A stretch of DNA of 64,000 bases from a virus. The stretch spans positions 1 to 64,000 of the IMG/VR virus record IMGVR_UViG_3300042508_000665; one strand, given 5' to 3'. Shown piece after piece: positions 6,948-57,822 of this stretch (positions within the stretch are counted from its first letter, which is position 1; every line of letters starts with the position of its first letter). Position numbers and translations under genes: made by a program. The notes below the pieces were generated by a model. That model was not told the origin of the DNA. It saw only the letters and a program-made list of their open reading frames with translations, and did not search any database.

Positions 6948-7239
6948 TGTGCCATTTTTTGTGCCACTGAAAGGCACAAAAGGTCGAAAAAACGCAATCA
7001 ATGCTAACACTCGGCAGCACTTGTTGAGTTGACAAAAAAAGAACTTAACTGTTCAGGATCGCAAAATATATTTGGTCAAACCGAGTCCTTACAGAGAAAG
7101 TTTGAAAATCGCCATCTATTAGTGGCATTGGCTTAGAAGGCGTAAGCTCATTCTTAGCCATCATTTGTAAGGTGCTTAACTGACTTAATAAATTGAGCGA
7201 ATAACTTTGTCAACATTGCTTTGTGCCATTTTTGTGCCA
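6948..7239. repeat. Repeated TGTGCCA elements upstream of integrase
   Basis: A composite element TGTGCCAT(T)5-6GTGCCA occurs at 6948-6966 and again at 7222-7239. The first copy is followed by an inverted GGCACAAAA at 6973-6981, which forms a 9-bp hairpin with TTTTGTGCC at 6957-6965. A further GGCACAA lies at 6886-6892, and CTGTGCCACAAAAG at 7317 lies inside the gene start. Repeats like these are what arm-type integrase sites look like; binding is not shown. Confidence 0.6.
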
Positions 7240-7291
7240 AGTTTTTTGGCTCAGCAGCCGAGAATTTACCCTAAATGCGGAGATAAATGCT

Positions 7292-8383
7292 ATGGGACAA
7301 ATCCTCGTGCGTCAATCTGTGCCACAAAAGGCGGGAGACCGTTTGACCTTTAGGTACACCGCTCGAATTCGGCTAAAAGGGACAACTCGCTGTAAGACGT
7401 TTCGTACAGAAACCCAAGCAAAAGACTGGATTGAAAAGGAAGAGGCCAAGATACGAAAGGAGTGGTCTGAGGGAAATCTCATACGAATTGTTTGTACAGT
7501 AAGGGATGCCGTGGCAAAGTATAAGGAGGAGTCTTTAGTAAATATATCAAACACTTGGGCGTGTACTCTAAGAAAGCTTAACGAGTATCTTGGGGATGTA
7601 AAATTAACAGAACTGAGACAGTCCGATATTCTTATTGCCAGAGCTAAATATAAAAAAAGTCGGGTGCCACCTCTGACCCCATCAACTGTAAACAAATTTA
7701 CAACTTGTCTTAGAAATGTTCTTAAAGTTGCTCGAAAATTTGAAATGATTTCTCATGATCCTTTTCGGGATTTTGAGCGTGAAAGTGAGAGAGCACATCA
7801 ACGCAATCGTTTTCTGTTAGACGATGAGAGAGAACGATTATTTGCGGAAGCTAAAAAGTCACGAAACCCACATTTGTGGGTAATTATTAACTTTGCCATT
7901 ATGACAGGATTTCGAAAAAATACCATTCGCTTCATGAAGTGGAGCCAGATTGATTTTAACGAAAACATCATTCACATAAAAAATCCCACCGTCAACGAGC
8001 AAGGTAAAAAGGGAAAGCCCAGAGCAACTAATGTGCCAATTGTCCCGACTCTTAAAACTATTTTGCTTGAACACTTTAAAAAATACGGCACAACTGAATT
8101 TGTGTTTCCTTCCAGCGACAATCCACAAGTTCCAACAAATTTTAGATCAGCTTGGGAAGTTGCTAGAAAAAATGCAAAATTAAAAGACTTTAAATTTCAT
8201 GACTTGAGGGGATCTGCTGGAACGTATTTGGGAATGATGAAAGTTCCTCTTCATATCATTCAGCAAATTTTAGGTCATTCAGACCCAAAAATGACAATGA
8301 AGTATGTGCAAACCGTAGATGAGACTGTAAGAACTGAAATGACTCGTGTATTTGAAAAGATTTTTGCTATTCCCAAAACATAA
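7292..8383 (+). CDS. int: Tyrosine recombinase / phage integrase
   Basis: 363 residues from the ATG at 7292, chosen because GGAG lies 9 bases upstream; the frame is open back to 7223. Domains in order: N-terminal arm-binding region (about 1-65, beta strands and a basic helix), core-binding SAM-like domain (about 65-155) and the catalytic domain (about 170-350). Catalytic residues visible: R208 (TGFRKN), a Lys in the GKKGKPR hairpin, H303 and R306 (FHDLR), H329 (LGHSD) and nucleophile Y338 (MKYVQ). All are present, so it should be active. The excisionase-like gene follows directly. A tyrosine integrase is unusual in a T4-like genome. Confidence 0.88.
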   Translation: MGQILVRQSVPQKAGDRLTFRYTARIRLKGTTRCKTFRTETQAKDWIEKEEAKIRKEWSEGNLIRIVCTVRDAVAKYKEESLVNISNTWACTLRKLNEYLGDVKLTELRQSDILIARAKYKKSRVPPLTPSTVNKFTTCLRNVLKVARKFEMISHDPFRDFERESERAHQRNRFLLDDERERLFAEAKKSRNPHLWVIINFAIMTGFRKNTIRFMKWSQIDFNENIIHIKNPTVNEQGKKGKPRATNVPIVPTLKTILLEHFKKYGTTEFVFPSSDNPQVPTNFRSAWEVARKNAKLKDFKFHDLRGSAGTYLGMMKVPLHIIQQILGHSDPKMTMKYVQTVDETVRTEMTRVFEKIFAIPKT

Positions 8384-14415: not shown

Positions 14416-16347
14416 ATGCCTAAATTAGCTCTAAAAGATTGGATAATTAACACACTTGGTATAGGAGAAGCCAAGAATGCTGCCCATTATCGGGAAAAAT
14501 GGCTACGTGACAATCACCCGCACAGACTTGCCGAAATAATACAGGCAACAAATTTCCTCGATATAGATAGTAATCTTTCATTTAGAATATTTTGCATTCT
14601 AAACGACGTAGAATCAAAGCCTATATGCGACCGCTGCAATGCAAAACCAACTAAATTTTGCAATGGGAAAATTCAAAAATACTGTTCCGTAGAGTGTGCG
14701 TCTTCTTCGCCGGATAGACAAAAGAAGCGAAAAATCACTAATTTAATGAAATATGGTGTAGAGCACGCACAGCAAAATGAATCGGTAAAAAGAAAAAGAG
14801 AGCAAACGTGTTTGAGGATTTATGGAGAAACTAATCCGACTAAAAATCAGAATGTTAAAAAGCTAATATCTGAAAAATCAAAGAGTGCACATTCTAATAT
14901 CGACCATTCCGAATACGCTAAGAGATTGGAGAAATATAAAAAGACAAATTTAGAGCGCTTTGGCGTTGAATTTGCTATTCAGAATGAAAAAATAAAAGAG
15001 AAGTCTAATAAAACATGCCTTGAAAAATATGGAGTTGATAATCCTAGTAAATCTGAAGAAATTAAAAACAAAATTAAAAATACGAACATGTCTAGGTATG
15101 GAGTTCCATGGGGTTTATCTAACGACGGCATACGAAAGAAGATAGTTAATACCTTAAAAGAAAAGTGTGGAGTAGAACATCCATCACAAATACCAGACGT
15201 GCGACGGAAGGCAGAACAAACTACTCTTGAGAGGCTGGGAGTGTGTTTTGCTGCTCAGTCTGATGAAATTCAAGAACGTATGCAGCAAAAAATGTTAGAA
15301 AGATATGGTGTCAAATGGGCAACTCAAACACATATTCCGCCAGATTCTATTATAAAATTAAATGATATCGAATGGTTAAAAAATGCGAATCAAACCAAAT
15401 CTTTGACTGAGATATCAAAAGAACTTGGTGTTGGTGACGTAACTGTGGGGATCTATTTTAGGAAACATGGTATAGAGCCAATATATCATTATCGCTCATC
15501 AGGTAAGATTGAACTCTGCTCATTTCTAAAAGAATCTGGTGTGGTAGATTATGAATGTAATATTCGCGGAATAATAGGTAAAGATGAATTAGATATTTTT
15601 ATTCCGGAAAAGAGGATTGCAATTGAATATCATGGGATATATTGGCACTCGGAAAACATATCAGCCCAAAATAGAATCAAACATTTTAAATTATGGCAAA
15701 AATGTCATAATAAAGGTATAAGACTCTTTCAAATATATGAGCATGAATGGTTAGATCCCCAAAAGAAACTTATCTGGAAGAATATTCTTTCGGCATCACT
15801 GGGAAAATTTGATTCTATATATGCCAGAAAGTGTTTTGTGATTGAATTAAATCCAAAAGAGGTCAAAACATTCTATGATTCAAACCATCTACAGGGAATG
15901 GTGGGAGCAAGCAGTCATTTTGGTCTTTTATATGAGGGGCGGATTATAGCTGCAATGTCTTTCAGAACATCTAAGGGGCAGTCTGAACTTATAAGATTCT
16001 GTTCATTGCTAGGAGTCAGAGTCGTTGGGGGCGCGTCTAAGCTTCTTATGGCTTATGTTAAAAAATATAAACCAAAAGAAATTGTTACCTTCAGTGATAA
16101 TAGATATTCTTCCGGAAATCTTTATAATACTTTAGGATTCGATGCAGTCGCTAATGTGCCTCCCAGATACATTTATGTTCACGGCAATACACACGAAGAG
16201 ATGCATAGGCGTTCTTTTCAAAAGCAATATTTAAACAGAATCATACCCAATTATGATTCATCTTTAACTGAATGGGAGAATGTTAAGCGGTCTCTTTGGT
16301 TACGTATTTGGGATGCTGGTAAAATCAAATGGATTTTAAAACAATAA
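14416..16347 (+). CDS. Freestanding homing endonuclease (Vsr-like/EDxHD type) with YGV repeats
   Basis: 643 residues. N-terminal zinc finger (C71, C74, C90, C94), then eight repeats of about 23-46 residues built on (K/R)YGVxxxxQ (at about 113, 135, 181, 205, 228, 250, 274, 297), a helix-turn-helix (about 328-355), and a Vsr-like nuclease core with D393, E404 and H411 (LDIF...IAIEYHGIYWHSE). The C-terminal 200 residues resemble an accessory domain found on such enzymes. The repeat array probably reads DNA. It lies antiparallel between the capsid genes 23 and 20, a typical homing site, and appears intact. SD GAGAG upstream. Confidence 0.75.
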   Translation: MPKLALKDWIINTLGIGEAKNAAHYREKWLRDNHPHRLAEIIQATNFLDIDSNLSFRIFCILNDVESKPICDRCNAKPTKFCNGKIQKYCSVECASSSPDRQKKRKITNLMKYGVEHAQQNESVKRKREQTCLRIYGETNPTKNQNVKKLISEKSKSAHSNIDHSEYAKRLEKYKKTNLERFGVEFAIQNEKIKEKSNKTCLEKYGVDNPSKSEEIKNKIKNTNMSRYGVPWGLSNDGIRKKIVNTLKEKCGVEHPSQIPDVRRKAEQTTLERLGVCFAAQSDEIQERMQQKMLERYGVKWATQTHIPPDSIIKLNDIEWLKNANQTKSLTEISKELGVGDVTVGIYFRKHGIEPIYHYRSSGKIELCSFLKESGVVDYECNIRGIIGKDELDIFIPEKRIAIEYHGIYWHSENISAQNRIKHFKLWQKCHNKGIRLFQIYEHEWLDPQKKLIWKNILSASLGKFDSIYARKCFVIELNPKEVKTFYDSNHLQGMVGASSHFGLLYEGRIIAAMSFRTSKGQSELIRFCSLLGVRVVGGASKLLMAYVKKYKPKEIVTFSDNRYSSGNLYNTLGFDAVANVPPRYIYVHGNTHEEMHRRSFQKQYLNRIIPNYDSSLTEWENVKRSLWLRIWDAGKIKWILKQ

Positions 16348-45693: not shown

Positions 45694-48600
45694 ATGTCAG
45701 GAATAATTAGAACAAAGATTTCAGGAAAACAGATTATCGATGGAAGCGTAACTCGCTCAAATCTCGATACATCTATCGTTTCTGATATCGACACACTCAA
45801 GAGTCATGATACTCAACAAATTGGTCAAATCGCTCAGCTAGAAACTGACGTTGCGACCGAGACAACAGCTAGAATTGCCGGTGATACCGCTCTTGGACTA
45901 CGTATTGATGACGTAGAGAGCAATTTGGCTGATGAAGTAACCGCAAGGACATCTGCTGATACTTCACTAAACAATGCTATCGCAGCCGAAGAGAGTCGCG
46001 CACTTCTTGCTGAACAAGGACTTGCAGATGACATTCTTTCAGAGCAAGAGCGTGCGATTGCAATAGAAACAGATCTTCAAGCTCAAATTGATGCAGAAGA
46101 AATCGCTCGCGCTGCGGCTGTTAGTGCTGTTGCTGGCGATCTTAGTACTGAAGTAACTCGCGCCACTTCTGCTGAACAAGCATTAGATGCACGATTAGAT
46201 GTTCTTGAGCAAGACCCAACAACAAAGGGCTATGTAGATCAAAAGGTTGCAGACCTAGTTAACTCAGCCCCTGCGGTACTTGATACATTAAAAGAACTTG
46301 CTGATGCTATTGGCGAAGATCCTAATTTCGCAACTACTATCGCAAATCAAGTAGGAGTAGTAGCTGCTGATCTAGCAACCGAAACAACAGCTCGTATAGC
46401 TGGAGATTCAAATCTTCAGTCTCAAATTGATGCTTTATCGCTCGGTTCAAGTACCGACATAAGTGCATTGCAAACATCTTTAAATCAAGAAATCCTTGAT
46501 CGTCAATCTGGCGATACTGCTCTCGGACTTCGAATTGATGGAGTAGAAGGTGATTTAGCTGATGAAGTAACTGCAAGAACATCCGCTATAGCTGCTGAAA
46601 CCTCAGCTCGTACCTCAGCTGATACCGCTCTCGGACTTCGAATTGACGGAGTAGAAGGTGATTTAGCTGATGAAGTAACTGCAAGAACATCTGCTGACAG
46701 CGCTCTTAGCAGTCGAATTAGCGTCCTTGAATTATACAAAGATGCACAGGTAGTCTATGTAGCTAAAAATGGAAATGACTCCACTGGAAATGGTGGCGAA
46801 CATGCTCCATACTTAACACTTCAAGCTGCTATGGCTTCTATTACTGATTCATCTCCTTCAAAGAGATACGTCATTAGAGTAAAGGCTGGTAACTATACCG
46901 AATCTGGCATTTTAAATCTTAAGCCAAATGTGTATGTTGTTGGTGATTCTATATATTCTGTTAGAATTACTGCTACCTCATTTGCTCTTGATTCAACATT
47001 CAACGCAAATTCTAGCTTTGACAACAGATCAGGATTTTCGAGTTGTACGCTATTAAGTGCATGTGACTTTAACTGGCAAACCGTATCATCTGCTGCTGGT
47101 AAATTGTATTTTACCGAAGTTCAATTCGGTTCTACTGTTACCATGTATGGGCATAATAATGCAATCGCACAAGCACAATTTCTCGGTTGTATATTTTTTG
47201 GTGCCTTTACTGTTAGTGGGATTAACGTAGGTGTTCATAGAAATAACATACACTACGGCAATATCACACTTAATCAGCATCCTAATGGTGGTATGGTTAC
47301 CAATCTTACTGCTGATGGTGGAGTTTGTACTGGTACAGTTACACTAAATGCAACTACAAATGACTTTAATAGAAGATGCTCCGTGTTTGCTCGTTCATTC
47401 TACATGGAATATCTAACTGTTAACGGTCCAAGTGCATACTGCGACCTTACTGATAGTAGCGTTCCAAGAGACATTGCACGTGTAACAAAGTCAAATGGTG
47501 GGAATATTGTTTATATTAACTCATTAACACCAATTGATACTAATACACGTAATCAAGGAGATGTTGGAAAGCAATATCTGTATAACTTTAACTACGTGAA
47601 CGCTTCTACGGGAAGTGATTTGTACGTCATTTCAATGGGTACGTCATATTCCGCAGATAACTCAGGTAAAAACATCTTTATCAAAGCTGACTCAAATGGA
47701 TTAGCTCCTAACGTAAACGGTGGTGATATTAATATTAACACCTCAGAAGTTAGTGGAACTGGTGTTCGCGGAGAAATTAAATTTGACGGTCGACAAGTTA
47801 ACGTCAGCAGCAAGAAAATTGTAAATCTTGCTAATGGTGTTGATGCAAACGATGCAGTAAACGTATCACAACTTAATTCTTCTATAGCTGCCGAAACATC
47901 AGCTCGTACCTCAGCTGATACCGCTCTTGGTCTCAGAATTGATGGAGTTGAGGGTGATTTAGCTGATGAAGTAACTGCAAGAACATCTGCTGATACAAAT
48001 CTTCAGTCGCAAATTGATGCTTTATCACTCAGCTCAAGTACCGATATAAGTGCATTGGAAGCAGCTTTAGAGCAAGAAGTTCTTGATCGTCAATCTGGCG
48101 ATGCAGCTACGCTTTCAAGTGCTAATACTTATACCGATGGTAAAGTAGCTGACCTTGTAAATTCTGCACCTGCTGTACTTGATACCCTCAAGGAATTAGC
48201 TGATGCACTCGGACAAGATCCAAACTTTGCTACCACTGTTTCAAATCAGATTGGTGTTGTAGCTGCTGATCTAGCTTCGGAAATTGCTCGCGCTCTAGCA
48301 GCAGAGTCTGAGATTGCTGGCGATCTTGCTGATGAGGTGATTGCAAGAAGTGCTGCTATAACCGCTGAAGCAACAGCTCGTACCTCAGCCGATACAGCTC
48401 TTGGACTACGCATTGACGGAGTTGAGAGTGATTTAGCTGATGAAGTGACTGCAAGAACCTCAGCTGATACAGCTCTTGGACTACGCATTGACGGAGTTGA
48501 GAGTGATTTAGCTGATGAAGTGACTGCAAGAAGTGCTGCTATAACCGCTGAAGCAACAGCTCGTACCTCAGCCGATACAGCTCTTGGACTACGCATTGAC

Positions 48601-49347
48601 GGAGTTGAGAGTGATTTAGCTGATGAAGTGACTGCAAGAAGTGCTGCTGATTCTGCACTTGATCTTAGACTGGATGCTCTTGAAAGCAGCGCTTTCGTTA
48701 CCAGAGAAGTTCCTTCCGGACTTATTGATGGAGTCAACAAAGTATTTACTTTGGCGAACACTCCAAATCCAGGCTCGGAGCAGGTATTCCTCAACGGTGT
48801 GTTGCAAGAAGCTGGAGTGAGTGGTGATTACACCATTTCTGGAAGTACCATTACTTTCGGAGAAGCACCAACCGTTCCGTTCAGCATCTTCGTTAACTAC
48901 ATAACCGGAGACCTAGTAGTAGGTAGCGCTGGCGGAAGTGGAAGTGGAAGCGTTCAGCCGTTCCAATGGACGACAACTGAGCAGTTATATCCTTTTGAAG
49001 TTGCCGATGATGGAAGTCCATTATATGCAATAAGAATTGATATACCATCTCTTCCGAATAACGGCTTTGCCTCATACAACTTGACACCTCTCGCACCGTT
49101 CCTTGCGGATAAAACAAACAATCTGCATGAATACTTACACAGGTACGAGTTTCACTGGAAGGGATTTAGCACAGTCTACGGGCAATCCATTGTGAGAGAA
49201 GGCGCTCAAGCTGGTGTTGTGAATGCTTCTATAGAGTGGGATGGAGTAAGCAGCTACAGCCAAGTAGTAGTTGGTACTAGTGGTGGTGGCAATTGGCATA
49301 GCGACCTCTCTGGTACTTTCAGAGTATTATATAAGAAAACAATATAA
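45694..49347 (+). CDS. Large tail fibre protein with coiled-coil repeats and beta-helix domain
   Basis: 1217 residues, SD AAGGA. N-terminal shaft of repeated heptad-like units (ADEVTARTSADTALGLRIDGVE and variants, about 20-350). Then a right-handed beta-helix-like domain starting at YVAKNGNDSTGNGG (about 350-690), as in receptor-binding or depolymerase fibres. A second shaft (about 725-1000) is followed by the SGLIDGVNKVFTL module and a tip module (about 1085-1217) shared with the product at 44804. No catalytic residues can be assigned. Probably the main host-recognition fibre. Confidence 0.85.
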   Translation: MSGIIRTKISGKQIIDGSVTRSNLDTSIVSDIDTLKSHDTQQIGQIAQLETDVATETTARIAGDTALGLRIDDVESNLADEVTARTSADTSLNNAIAAEESRALLAEQGLADDILSEQERAIAIETDLQAQIDAEEIARAAAVSAVAGDLSTEVTRATSAEQALDARLDVLEQDPTTKGYVDQKVADLVNSAPAVLDTLKELADAIGEDPNFATTIANQVGVVAADLATETTARIAGDSNLQSQIDALSLGSSTDISALQTSLNQEILDRQSGDTALGLRIDGVEGDLADEVTARTSAIAAETSARTSADTALGLRIDGVEGDLADEVTARTSADSALSSRISVLELYKDAQVVYVAKNGNDSTGNGGEHAPYLTLQAAMASITDSSPSKRYVIRVKAGNYTESGILNLKPNVYVVGDSIYSVRITATSFALDSTFNANSSFDNRSGFSSCTLLSACDFNWQTVSSAAGKLYFTEVQFGSTVTMYGHNNAIAQAQFLGCIFFGAFTVSGINVGVHRNNIHYGNITLNQHPNGGMVTNLTADGGVCTGTVTLNATTNDFNRRCSVFARSFYMEYLTVNGPSAYCDLTDSSVPRDIARVTKSNGGNIVYINSLTPIDTNTRNQGDVGKQYLYNFNYVNASTGSDLYVISMGTSYSADNSGKNIFIKADSNGLAPNVNGGDININTSEVSGTGVRGEIKFDGRQVNVSSKKIVNLANGVDANDAVNVSQLNSSIAAETSARTSADTALGLRIDGVEGDLADEVTARTSADTNLQSQIDALSLSSSTDISALEAALEQEVLDRQSGDAATLSSANTYTDGKVADLVNSAPAVLDTLKELADALGQDPNFATTVSNQIGVVAADLASEIARALAAESEIAGDLADEVIARSAAITAEATARTSADTALGLRIDGVESDLADEVTARTSADTALGLRIDGVESDLADEVTARSAAITAEATARTSADTALGLRIDGVESDLADEVTARSAADSALDLRLDALESSAFVTREVPSGLIDGVNKVFTLANTPNPGSEQVFLNGVLQEAGVSGDYTISGSTITFGEAPTVPFSIFVNYITGDLVVGSAGGSGSGSVQPFQWTTTEQLYPFEVADDGSPLYAIRIDIPSLPNNGFASYNLTPLAPFLADKTNNLHEYLHRYEFHWKGFSTVYGQSIVREGAQAGVVNASIEWDGVSSYSQVVVGTSGGGNWHSDLSGTFRVLYKKTI
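48343..48639 (+). repeat. 114-bp perfect direct repeat within the fibre gene
   Basis: 48343-48456 and 48526-48639 are identical over 114 bases, 183 bases (61 codons) apart. A partial third copy lies between them. Recombination would remove or add exactly 61 codons in frame. Confidence 0.9.
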
Positions 49348-53684: not shown

Positions 53685-54338
53685 ATGAATATTGATAAGC
53701 TAAAAACTGCCATAGATGTTGGTAACGGCGTTACCATGGCATCGCATTTTAGGGTGCAATTTACATTCCCTGAAAGTCTTCGTGCGGTTTCATCGGAGAG
53801 CTTTTCTCCCAGAAACATGACTATATACTGTCAAAGCGCAACTCTACCTGGAACTCAAATAGCCACTTCGGAGACGCCCATTTACGGACAGAGCGTGAAA
53901 ATGCCGTATGGGTTGATTTATCAGGATTTAACTTTATCTTTCATTTGCACCAATACAATGTCTCAGAGGTACATATTTGAAGAGTGGAGGCGAATAATCG
54001 TAGACCCTACGACCAATTATGTAAATTACTACGATAAGTACGTTGGATACGCTTTCATACAGAAACTCGACCAGACTGGCAAAGTCGTTCATGGGATAGT
54101 TTGTGAGGAAATTTATCCAATAGCAATCTTTGAACAAGAACTTGCGGCGCAAAATAATGACTGGCTCAGATTAACAGTGCAGTTTTCGTATAGGAGATGG
54201 AGAGGGCGTTATGATCTTGTCGCTGCAAGTCAAGCTGGATTTGAGTTAACGGACGTGCAGCCGCCGGGAGATGAGCCAAATCCAGGAGATGTCTTTAGTA
54301 AGACTAGAGCGCCACGGGTACCTGAATTTAAACCATAA
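53685..54338 (+). CDS. Tail-tube-fold protein (gp19/gp54-like)
   Basis: 217 residues. Pattern FRVQFTFPESL, YCQSATLPGTQIATSETPIYGQSVKMPYGLIYQDLTLSFICTNTM, FEEWRRIIVDPTTNYVNYYDKYVG, then YRRWRGRYD: the tube fold with the typical G-Q/P-Y linker. A tube initiator (gp54 position) or baseplate tube subunit is likely. The Pro-rich tail is variable. Confidence 0.65.
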   Translation: MNIDKLKTAIDVGNGVTMASHFRVQFTFPESLRAVSSESFSPRNMTIYCQSATLPGTQIATSETPIYGQSVKMPYGLIYQDLTLSFICTNTMSQRYIFEEWRRIIVDPTTNYVNYYDKYVGYAFIQKLDQTGKVVHGIVCEEIYPIAIFEQELAAQNNDWLRLTVQFSYRRWRGRYDLVAASQAGFELTDVQPPGDEPNPGDVFSKTRAPRVPEFKP

Positions 54339-54350
54339 TGAGGTAATTAT

Positions 54351-55094
54351 ATGATGCCAACTCTACCGCAAATTGCACACCCAACTTACGAGATTACTAT
54401 CCCATCATCTAAGAAAAAGCATACTTTTCGCCCTATGCTAACTGGCGAGAGAAAAGTTCTTCTTATTGCTATGGAATCTCAAAATCCCCTAGAAATTAGT
54501 CGTGCTGTGCGTCAAATTTGTAATTCTTGCGTTAATAATTTAAACGCCGAATCACTTACAAGTTTTGATTTAGAATGGGTATTTCTGCAACTTATTATTA
54601 ATTCTATTCGCGATACTATTGACTTAGAAGTCAGAATACCAAATCGCCAAGATACGTGCGAAGAATGCGGAAAACCTAAGTTCGTAAAAGCAGATTTAAC
54701 CAAAGCACAGATTAAGGGAGATATAAAAGATAAAAAGGACTTGTTAATTGATGTTGGTAGTGGAGTAGGTGTTAAGCTGAAATACCCATCAGATAAAGAC
54801 ATTGAATTATTGGAAGAATTAAATCAGAGCAAAACTGAAATTGAAAAATTGATGAATCTTATCTCTGTTAGCATTGAGTCGGTCTTTGATCAAGACAAGA
54901 CATTTTCTTTTTCGGAGTACGACTACAGAGACAGGTTGGCATGGTTAGAGGCATTACCTCCAAATGTAACCGATAAAATTGAAGCCTTTCTTAATTCCAT
55001 TCCTCAGTTAGTTTTGGACGTAGCGATTGAGTGTCCGAAATGTAAATTTCAAGCTACATACCAATTGCAGGGGTTATCTGATTTTTTCGTTTAA
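54351..55094 (+). CDS. 26: Baseplate hub protein gp26-like (zero frame)
   Basis: 247 residues, SD GAGG. Pattern FRPMLTGERKVLLIAMESQNPLEISRAVRQICNSCV, FDLEWVFLQLIINSIRD, a CEECGK knuckle (about 102) paired with CPKCKF (about 229), and a tail ending in SDFFV. This is the T4 gp26 family (208 in T4), needed for hub assembly. A -1 frameshift signal at its end should make an extended product to 55270. Confidence 0.85.
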   Translation: MMPTLPQIAHPTYEITIPSSKKKHTFRPMLTGERKVLLIAMESQNPLEISRAVRQICNSCVNNLNAESLTSFDLEWVFLQLIINSIRDTIDLEVRIPNRQDTCEECGKPKFVKADLTKAQIKGDIKDKKDLLIDVGSGVGVKLKYPSDKDIELLEELNQSKTEIEKLMNLISVSIESVFDQDKTFSFSEYDYRDRLAWLEALPPNVTDKIEAFLNSIPQLVLDVAIECPKCKFQATYQLQGLSDFFV

Positions 55095-55117
55095 CGCTAG
55101 GTGATGAAGACCTAGCG
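55082..55117 (+). promoter_or_regulatory. Programmed -1 ribosomal frameshift signal
   Basis: Slippery heptamer T TTT TTC (55082-55088) in the zero frame of gene 26, a six-base spacer holding most of the zero-frame TAA (55092-55094), and a perfect 8-bp stem CGCTAGGT (55095-55102) / ACCTAGCG (55110-55117) with a 7-base loop. All three parts of a canonical -1 signal are present at the right distances. Confidence 0.8.
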
Positions 55118-55270
55118 GCATATTATAGGATGTGTTTCGATTTGATGCATTTTCATAAATGGAGTTTAAAAGATATTGAAAGCATGTACCCATTTGAACT
55201 TGAATTGTACAAGGTTTTATTAGTTAATCATTTACAAGAAGTTCAAAAAAGTAGGCAAATGAGCAGTTAA
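55082..55270 (+). CDS. -1 frame extension of gene 26
   Basis: Open in the -1 frame from just after a TGA at 55079 to the TAA at 55268-55270. It adds about 60 residues: LTLGDEDLAAYYRMCFDLMHFHKWSLKDIESMYPFELELYKVLLVNHLQ and a short tail. The sequence is protein-like and resembles chaperone-type segments of T4-like phages (YY...HHKWSLxDIExM.PFExELY). An independent start at the ATG at 55130 (46 residues) is possible but has only a weak SD. Confidence 0.75.
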   Translation, partial: FFRLTLGDEDLAAYYRMCFDLMHFHKWSLKDIESMYPFELELYKVLLVNHLQEVQKSRQMSS

Positions 55271-55272
55271 TA

Positions 55273-57822
55273 ATGAATCGCGAAAAGCAAAGGCAATTAA
55301 AATCACAGGAAGATCAAGCATATCTTCAGTTCGTTGACGAACTAAGGAACGCTGCACGTTTAGATTCACCCACAGTGGAGGTTTCTAGAATATATAAGGA
55401 AGTAATTGACATCCTCACTGAAGCATTCGACGAATATGATCCAGAGGAATTGCCCAAATATCAAGATAGACTTGATAATGTTGTAAAACTAGTAAAAGAA
55501 CAAGGAGCATTTTCAGATCCCCTCTTTTTAGACGATTTAGATAAAGCCACAGAAATCTTAAATGCCAAAGTAAAGAGAAGATGGAGTACATTTGACAAAA
55601 TTAAAACTTTAGCCTCCACGGCAATACGGGTCGTCGGAAGCTCCAGTGCTATAGTGCAAGAAATTTTGGATATAGGAAGTCAAGCCGAATCACTTGGAAG
55701 AAGAGCTGGTTCTATCTTTAGAGGGAGAGTTAGAGTAGACGACGAAGAAAGCAGAAGAGTTAGAGACTTAATAAAGGGCAATACCGGACAATACGGTAAT
55801 TATGAATCACCTCAAGGCTCTGCAAGTAATCGGCAGAATACTCTAACTCCACTTTCGAATTCAGCCATAGCAGTTAAAGATGATAAGTTAATTGGCACAA
55901 ATACTACACAAAATAAAGTCCTTAACAATTTACTTGATGTCAGTAAAGAAACTAATGTCAATATTAAAACTATTAAGAATCTTTTAATAAATCAGGAAAG
56001 ACAAAGAGATGATAAAAGCGACGATGCAACTCTTGACGCTTTGGAAAACAACCGAGAAAAAAATGCACTTGTTGCAATAAAGAATGATCGAAAATTACTC
56101 CAAAGTATTTTAGGTCCCGAAAGTACTGGTGGCTTAATACCATCAGAATCTGATAGAGGCGACAATCAGGGCGGAAGTACAATTTCTGATATGCTAGTGC
56201 AGGGATATGCCATAAAGAAAGGCGTAGAATGGATAGCGAAAGGAGGGAAAAAGACTCTCGGAGCAATTAAAGGAATAGCAAAAAAAGCATTACCGGCATT
56301 AAAAAAATCATCTTCTGTAATCGGGAGAGCACTCCCATGGCTTGGAAGAGGTGCTGCAACAGTCGCGGCATCCCCAGCAGTTGGTACGGCAGCTACAATA
56401 GGAGCTACGGCGCTGACGGCTTATGAAGTTGGCGGTTTAATCAATGATTATGTCGTTGATCCGGCAGTAAAAAAACTTAGTCCCAAAGTCACTAATATTG
56501 GCCAATCCATTTCGGCTACTGTGGGTGAAAAGACTAAAGGGATCGAATACTATAAGCAACTTTTTAAATCCGTCGATTTCGACGGGGATAGTCAGGAGAA
56601 AGCCGAAAAGTGGGCGCTTGAGTTTTTGGCGAAAATCGCTAAAGAAAAAGAAGAATTATTCCAGAAAGCGTATGAGAATGGCAGTCAATATGGGGATGGT
56701 TCCTATAAGATAAACAACAAGGATGCCAGCATCAGCGAAGCTTTACTAGATGTTAAGGCTGCAAAAGAGCAATATGAATATTATAAAAGATATCTTTTAG
56801 AGAAAGAGAAAAAAGGCGGATTGACTGCAACTGCCAGATTCAGAGGCTCCGATAACAAGATATATTCAAATCCATTATATAGAAATGAAGAACAGCCTCC
56901 TATCGTTTCAGGTCAAAGTCAAATAGAGCTAAAGAGTGATGCGTTAAAAACACAAATTGCTTCTCCCGCTCCTATTCCAGCACCAGCTCCAACTCCAGAT
57001 TTAACCAGTAAAGAGCGTAAAGAGGCATCTGTAAGGTCAGTAACACCACTATCTCCAACCTCAGCACCAAATCCAACGCCGACCGAAGCGGTCATGCGAG
57101 GTATTACGGCAGCAGAAACTGGAATTATTAGTGATGAGAGGCCAATAGATGACCCTAGTAGATTTATTAGAACCAAAGGAGGCGCAGAATCAAGCGCCTA
57201 CGGTCCTCAGCAGATAACCATGAGTCTCGCTAAGGGAGCATTGGAAAAAGGACTTCTTGATGGCGATGAAGAACTTAAAACATGGGTACAGGACAAGTTT
57301 ATACCACAGGGTAGAAAATTCTTACAATCAGATTATTCTCACCCCACCTATGGGGCTGGAGGACAGGGCGACTTAAATACTCCAGAAGATCGCAAGATGT
57401 ATCAAAAAATGTCGGAAAGGCTCATTGGTGAAGCCGTTTTAAACAATAAAGGAAATCTTGAATCTACACTAGGGGAGTGGAGATTTGGTCGTTCTAAACG
57501 CCATATGCTAGATCAATTAGATCCGGGATACGCTATTAAAGCAAAATCTCAGATATCAAAAGATCAAGTTTTGATGGCTAAATCTGATGTTGAAATTGGA
57601 CCTAAATCTCAGAATTATCTTGAAAATGCTGTTAGTTCATTATCCAGGGAAAATGAAGCAGCGAGAACACAGCCCATTATCATATCGCAAAATAGCGGAG
57701 GTTCGGGGAAACAGGAAGAGCCAATGCCTTCGGCTAGTATGAAAAGTGTCGGAGCGCCCGCAAATGGTGCATCTGAGAGTACACTTATGATTGCTATAAG
57801 ACAATCCATTTCACCCATATAA
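55273..57822 (+). CDS. Tail tape-measure-type protein with C-terminal lytic transglycosylase-like domain
   Basis: 849 residues. Directly after the gene 26 extension, the place of T4 gene 29. The N-terminus is charged and helical; a hydrophobic Ala/Gly-rich middle (about 345-395) follows; then a Pro-rich linker (about 560-600). The end (about 600-760) has AAETGI, then SSAYGPQQIT and the helical pattern of Slt-type transglycosylases; the Glu of AAETG is the candidate catalytic acid. Probably sets tail length and opens the cell wall during entry. Confidence 0.72.
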   Translation: MNREKQRQLKSQEDQAYLQFVDELRNAARLDSPTVEVSRIYKEVIDILTEAFDEYDPEELPKYQDRLDNVVKLVKEQGAFSDPLFLDDLDKATEILNAKVKRRWSTFDKIKTLASTAIRVVGSSSAIVQEILDIGSQAESLGRRAGSIFRGRVRVDDEESRRVRDLIKGNTGQYGNYESPQGSASNRQNTLTPLSNSAIAVKDDKLIGTNTTQNKVLNNLLDVSKETNVNIKTIKNLLINQERQRDDKSDDATLDALENNREKNALVAIKNDRKLLQSILGPESTGGLIPSESDRGDNQGGSTISDMLVQGYAIKKGVEWIAKGGKKTLGAIKGIAKKALPALKKSSSVIGRALPWLGRGAATVAASPAVGTAATIGATALTAYEVGGLINDYVVDPAVKKLSPKVTNIGQSISATVGEKTKGIEYYKQLFKSVDFDGDSQEKAEKWALEFLAKIAKEKEELFQKAYENGSQYGDGSYKINNKDASISEALLDVKAAKEQYEYYKRYLLEKEKKGGLTATARFRGSDNKIYSNPLYRNEEQPPIVSGQSQIELKSDALKTQIASPAPIPAPAPTPDLTSKERKEASVRSVTPLSPTSAPNPTPTEAVMRGITAAETGIISDERPIDDPSRFIRTKGGAESSAYGPQQITMSLAKGALEKGLLDGDEELKTWVQDKFIPQGRKFLQSDYSHPTYGAGGQGDLNTPEDRKMYQKMSERLIGEAVLNNKGNLESTLGEWRFGRSKRHMLDQLDPGYAIKAKSQISKDQVLMAKSDVEIGPKSQNYLENAVSSLSRENEAARTQPIIISQNSGGSGKQEEPMPSASMKSVGAPANGASESTLMIAIRQSISPI

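Follow-up and report, generated by a model that had tools for sequence, protein, structure and literature searches.

The tail assembly chaperones of lambda and other long-tailed phages are reportedly produced by frameshifting, with gpG as the short form and gpGT as the long form, in work attributed to Levin et al. in 1993 and to Xu, Hendrix and Duda in 2004. With regard to the T4-like phages, a passage of the PRFect paper (PMC10885494), which follows Vladimirov et al. 2022, states that some of them use a short gene and a fused long gene and no frameshifting. According to a passage of a 2025 paper that cites Vladimirov et al. 2022, chaperone genes of T4-like phages are known to contain poly-T slip sites. 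The chaperone locus of the Vandenendeviridae and Andersonviridae (phage Adele, PMC12846349), which are families different from that of the phage analyzed here, contains an invariant GTTTTT. In cyanophages, gp51 reaches only ~20% of the usual length, with the first ~200 residues missing (Sullivan et al. 2010, PMC3037559), and was regarded in that study as the product of a shortened gene.

We analyzed a window of 64,000 nucleotides, which is part of a 68,613-base viral record with T4-like genes. Close relatives of the window were sought with single sequences as queries, which recovered one identical contig only. The gene 26 homologue of the window ends in a slippery heptamer that is followed by a stop codon, a hairpin and an open -1 frame (Table 1). 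The best explanation is that -1 programmed frameshifting at the end of gene 26 makes the long form of a tail assembly chaperone (TAC-NC), as in lambda G/GT, and we estimate the probability of this reading at about 0.92. An earlier note on this DNA knew of no description of such a frameshift in T4-like phages. The poly-T slip sites reported in the passage of the 2025 paper place the window case in a known kind, at least one predicted already. What is added here is the breadth of the census and an explanation of the short gp51.

Table 1. Positions of the features at the gene 26 locus and its flanks (window coordinates).
Feature	Position	Strand	Evidence
gp54-like/tail tube protein gene, upstream	53685..54338	+	phrog_45 tail tube E 1.2e-35; PF23849 E 4.6e-7
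Gene 26 homologue, zero-frame product of 247 aa, predicted short tail assembly chaperone form (TAC-N)	54351..55094	+	PF12322, phrog_150, AlphaFold2 model
AGGGG, Shine-Dalgarno-like, 8 nt 5´ of the heptamer, weakly supported candidate stimulator	55069..55073	+	sequence
Slippery heptamer T TTT TTC, X XXY YYZ register	55082..55088	+	sequence; T TTT TTN kept in 201/207 loci
-1 frame extension, 60 aa and stop, gp51-type C-terminal domain of predicted TAC-NC	55088..55270	+	phrog_634, conserved tails, T4 gp51 alignment, AlphaFold2
Zero-frame stop TAA, one codon 3´ of the heptamer	55092..55094	+	sequence
Hairpin, perfect 8-bp stem CGCTAGGT (55095-55102)/ACCTAGCG (55110-55117), 7-nt loop, likely stimulator	55095..55117	+	folding z-scores
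46-aa ATG ORF inside the -1 domain, probably no separate gene	55130..55270	+	start inside helix, upstream conserved residues, RBS spacing
Long ORF of 849 aa, candidate tape measure, downstream	55273..57822	+	position only

Slip site and downstream structure at the end of gene 26

In profile searches, the gene 26 product matches PF12322 (T4_baseplate; E 1.1e-47) and phrog_150 (baseplate hub, the T4 gp26 family; E 6.6e-51). Body and tail of the predicted fusion were modelled as separate chains with AlphaFold2. The model of the gp26 body has a mean pLDDT of 92.4, and T4-like gp26/hub-chaperone models in BFVD matched it down to E 4e-20. A Foldseek comparison of the same model with the PDB gave no significant match to any solved structure, and the HK97 tail assembly chaperone (PDB code: 2ob9) occupies ranks 10-11 among these matches at E 1.2-1.5. 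In profile searches of the PDB, the body had no match, and those obtained with the tail were chance coiled-coil matches only. The window gp26 also contains two CxxC pairs (CEEC and CPKC), which are suggestive of a zinc ribbon; one or both are absent from several cyanophage relatives.

The last codons of gene 26 in the zero frame are TCT GAT TTT TTC GTT TAA, and a 6-nt spacer (GTTTAA, 55089-55094) lies between the heptamer and the hairpin. The earlier note had described the heptamer, six bases and a perfect 8-bp stem-loop. All three are present and the heptamer is in register, with the single correction that the spacer holds the whole TAA and not most of the stop. The end of the stop codon is located 6 nt 3´ of the heptamer in 81 of the first 95 loci of the census as well. 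Directly 5´ of the heptamer, the -1 frame is closed by a TGA (55079-55081), and it is then open up to the TAA at 55268-55270, in agreement with the frame proposed at first. The predicted fusion comprises 246 + 60 = 306 residues, which corresponds to the gp26 body plus about 60 residues that had been expected.

Of 200 dinucleotide shuffles, 195 fold less well than the hairpin region (z -2.28), and the z-score of this region against synonymous recoding is about -4.9. Across the family, the mean folding z-score against synonymous recoding is -1.17 to -1.30 in 42-nt segments whose first base lies 3-6 nt inside the -1 frame. It remains at ~ -1.1 when the start is shifted by as much as 21 nt into this frame, and is only -0.07 to -0.38 in segments upstream or further downstream; further calculations gave similar values. 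The specific stem is not conserved, given that perfect stems of at least 7 bp were found in 11 of 99 cluster representatives versus 9 of 99 recoded sequences. The structure excess in the family is one of mean folding energy only, just 3´ of the heptamer. Among the features on whose conservation in relatives the first account had staked its case, the heptamer, the -1 frame and the average structure are kept, but the exact stem varies.

The AGGGG motif upstream of the heptamer resembles the stimulator of dnaX frameshifting. Shine-Dalgarno-like cores occur upstream in 87 of the 99 cluster representatives, whereas the encoded amino acids by themselves would predict 78. This excess is little beyond the codon constraint on an invariant Gly, and a conserved Shine-Dalgarno stimulator cannot be told apart from such constraint.

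The -1 frame domain and T4 gp51

The 60-residue -1 domain matches phrog_634, the ‘baseplate hub assembly catalyst’ (gp51) family, with an E-value of 2.5e-17, while the fusion matches phrog_634 with 5e-20 and phrog_150 with 2.4e-56. AlphaFold2 predicts three helices in the tail (residues 6-23, 27-31 and 35-59; pLDDT 82), and the domain is under protein-level constraint among homologues. The protein-like, helix-rich character ascribed to it at the outset is borne out, with the amendment that the -1 domain is no unknown extra but the C-terminal part of T4 gp51.

T4 gp51 contains a PF12322 body (residues 1-201) and a phrog_634 tail in one ORF, and the profile of the -1 tails aligns to its residues 206-245; T4 gp26 belongs to the body family only. 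A single fused ORF, for which the earlier note had proposed to search T4-like genomes, is thus found in T4 itself, and the predicted window fusion has the architecture of a protein that is encoded by its own gene in T4. The same two protein forms are specified by two genes in T4, whereas the window has one gene and a predicted frameshift. Genes 26 and 51 of T4 are separate and divergently transcribed, and gene 26 ends in GAG TTC TTT GAG, in which the heptamer is lost. Erwinia phage Vettismorki (Tevenvirinae) has separate genes, as in T4. The cyanophage gp51 has the same C-terminal domain as the window product, and it looks truncated because the missing residues would come from gene 26 via the frameshift.

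Alternatively, gene 51 could be a separate small gene with an internal start, for example ATG 55130, from which it is translated independently or through coupling, with the heptamer as a by-product of the conserved Asp/Ser-Phe-Phe end of gp26. gp51 is annotated as a separate short gene in many GenBank records, and in the sampled Ackermannviridae the gp26 stop overlaps a -1-frame ATG (TAATG), which would permit re-initiation. However, ATG 55130 of the window corresponds to tail residue 15, in the middle of the first predicted helix, and the conserved L-x-H-x-x-L segment of the tail is located 5´ of it. An AGG stands only 1 nt from this ATG, and there is no well-spaced ribosome-binding site. Since the only nearby ATG cuts off half of helix 1 and no good separate start is present, the -1 product is read as a frameshift extension. 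Amino-acid constraint, moreover, can explain neither the fixed synonymous T of the heptamer nor the retention of the slip site when the second Phe becomes Leu, and body and tail are joined in one T4 protein. Taken as a whole, a separately translated gene 51 is improbable, and for the window a separate 46-aa gene that starts at ATG 55130 is rejected as unlikely, given the start within a helix and the lack of a spaced ribosome-binding site.

Conservation of the slip site among T4-like phages

The census comprises junctions read in isolates and IMG/VR loci from several scans. All 201 of the 207 gene-26 loci examined that contain T TTT TTN in register also have homologous -1 tails. At 80% nucleotide identity, the heptamer-bearing loci group into 99 clusters, the representatives of which carry TTTTTTC (65), TTTTTTT (26), TTTTTTA (7) or TTTTTTG (1). 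The lineages with TTTTTTA or TTTTTTG have exchanged the second Phe for Leu and still retain the slip site. At other positions of these genes, TTT accounts for 70% of the Phe codons and T-ending codons for 67% of the counted Asp/Asn/Ser codons. Under codon usage alone, the occurrence of T in 99 of 99 representatives would have odds of ~10^-15 and 10^-17, which are too extreme given that the loci are related by descent and hence are no independent trials, while the direction is clear. Because the T of the heptamer is fixed at freely synonymous sites, codon usage does not explain the invariance of the junction. A tblastn search with the fusion against phage records identified 640 records, in 609 of which at least 80% of the fusion is covered; each of the 60 best-ranked rows consists of two joined pieces.

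Heptamer and tail are present in the Kyanoviridae isolates S-SSM7, ACG-2014j, DSL-LC03, KBS-M-1A, Mosig, Melnitz-2, HTVC008M and phiOC, and cyanophages, Pelagibacter, Methylophilales and Ochrobactrum phages are covered within this family. The signal also appears in Straboviridae outside Tevenvirinae, namely the KVP40-like phi-pp2, the Aeromonas phages phiAS5, AsFcp_2 and 65.2, and Citrobacter phage Ci1; Mendera and pf16 likewise have the heptamer and the -1 tail. The slip site is retained in virtually all T4-like phages outside the subfamily of T4, and the signal is real.

Two further explanations of the junction are less probable than a separate gene 51. RNA polymerase might slip on the T run in place of the ribosome and yield mRNAs of altered length that join both frames. 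The run is 6 T long here and longer in some relatives (e.g. loci L019, L055 and L061). A run of 6, however, is short for efficient transcriptional slippage, and the strict X XXY YYZ register together with a stop one codon on and downstream structure is the signature of tandem tRNA slippage, which makes the polymerase a very unlikely source of the two forms. An artefact, either through a sequencing error or through decay of an ancestral single ORF that was divided by an indel, is conceivable in an individual genome given the single ORF of T4 gp51, but it is refuted to near certainty by the same junction in 201 loci from isolates and metagenomes, a census that rules out assembly or sequencing artefact, and by the protein-level constraint that still acts on the -1 domain.

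The six loci without the heptamer (L014, L015, L105, L106, L107 and L109) belong to Ackermannviridae or close relatives (vibriophage D492). They keep the -1 tail, and in five of the six the gp26 stop overlaps the -1-frame ATG as TAATG. In Kuttervirus FEC14 (L107), ATT replaces the overlapping ATG and may serve as an AUU start. We tentatively suggest, with somewhat less than even confidence, that frameshifting is the general route to the two forms in T4-like phages outside Tevenvirinae and has been replaced at least twice: by duplication into gp26 and gp51 in the Tevenvirinae, and by the stop-start overlap TAATG with loss of the heptamer in the Ackermannviridae. If this is true, one protein pair would be made by three expression mechanisms within one virus group.

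The census also bears on annotation. The frameshifted domain lacks any annotation in the records of ACG-2014j, DSL-LC03, AsFcp_2 and 65.2, and many other records name the -1 domain as a separate gene 51 or as a hypothetical protein. Annotation pipelines have thus missed or misnamed the product in several of the records examined, and in hundreds of marine T4-like phages the annotation ‘gene 51’ would denote the C-terminal half of a predicted frameshifted protein.

Proposed synthesis of the two chaperone forms and the surrounding genes

From the observed sequence elements, their conservation and the homology of the -1 domain to gp51, we infer for the window phage that slippage occurs, how often it does so, and that the products act as chaperones. 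Most ribosomes would read to the TAA at 55094 and release the 247-aa short form (TAC-N, equivalent to gp26). In a minority of them, the tRNA-Phe molecules that occupy the P and A sites and pair with TTT TTC would slip back by one base on T TTT TTC, aided by the downstream hairpin. The slipped ribosomes would then read 60 codons of the -1 frame, which would yield a 306-aa TAC-NC with a helical C-terminal domain of the T4 gp51 type. If lambda gpG/gpGT is taken as a guide, the tape measure may be coated by many copies of the short form and few of the long one, and the added domain may recruit tail tube subunits.

The likeness to the frameshifted tail assembly chaperones of the lambda type, which the earlier note had pointed out, is supported by the slip site, the -1 domain and the conservation. 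In both systems, a short chaperone is accompanied by a long form that arises, in the window by prediction, from a -1 frameshift near the 3´ terminus of the gene, and the gene is flanked in the tail cluster by a tail-tube-type gene upstream and a long ORF downstream. The slip site of lambda is G GGA AAG, in contrast to T TTT TTN here, and the extension in the window matches T4 gp51 and not gpT. Frameshifting at gene 26 would unite T4-like tails with the lambda-type chaperone scheme, and KVP40, cyanophages and other tractable phages are systems in which the clear and widely kept signal can be tested.

The long ORF downstream has no family match in profile searches, and pairwise comparison revealed no convincing similarity to T4 gp29 or to the putative tape measure of HTVC008M. 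The annotation of the latter, a Pelagibacter phage, places a ‘putative tail tape measure’ in the same region, with one small gene in between. In cyanophage ACG-2014j, the long gene that follows the frameshift site (L003:2396-3884) carries the annotation ‘2OG-Fe(II) oxygenase family like protein’; it may be a tape measure candidate that was misnamed or is fused.

Three other ORFs of the window were noted. The 386-aa ORF at 7223-8383 reads as tyrosine-type integrase-like, which is unusual for a T4-like phage. The 1217-aa ORF at 45694-49347 contains many near-identical repeats (ALGLRIDGVE..LADEVTARTSA) and is probably a tail fibre; the repeats could recombine or be misassembled. The 643-aa ORF at 14416-16347, which is located between structural genes, contains repeated ‘E+YGV..A.Q...I..K’ units, and its C-terminal region is homing-type endonuclease-like.
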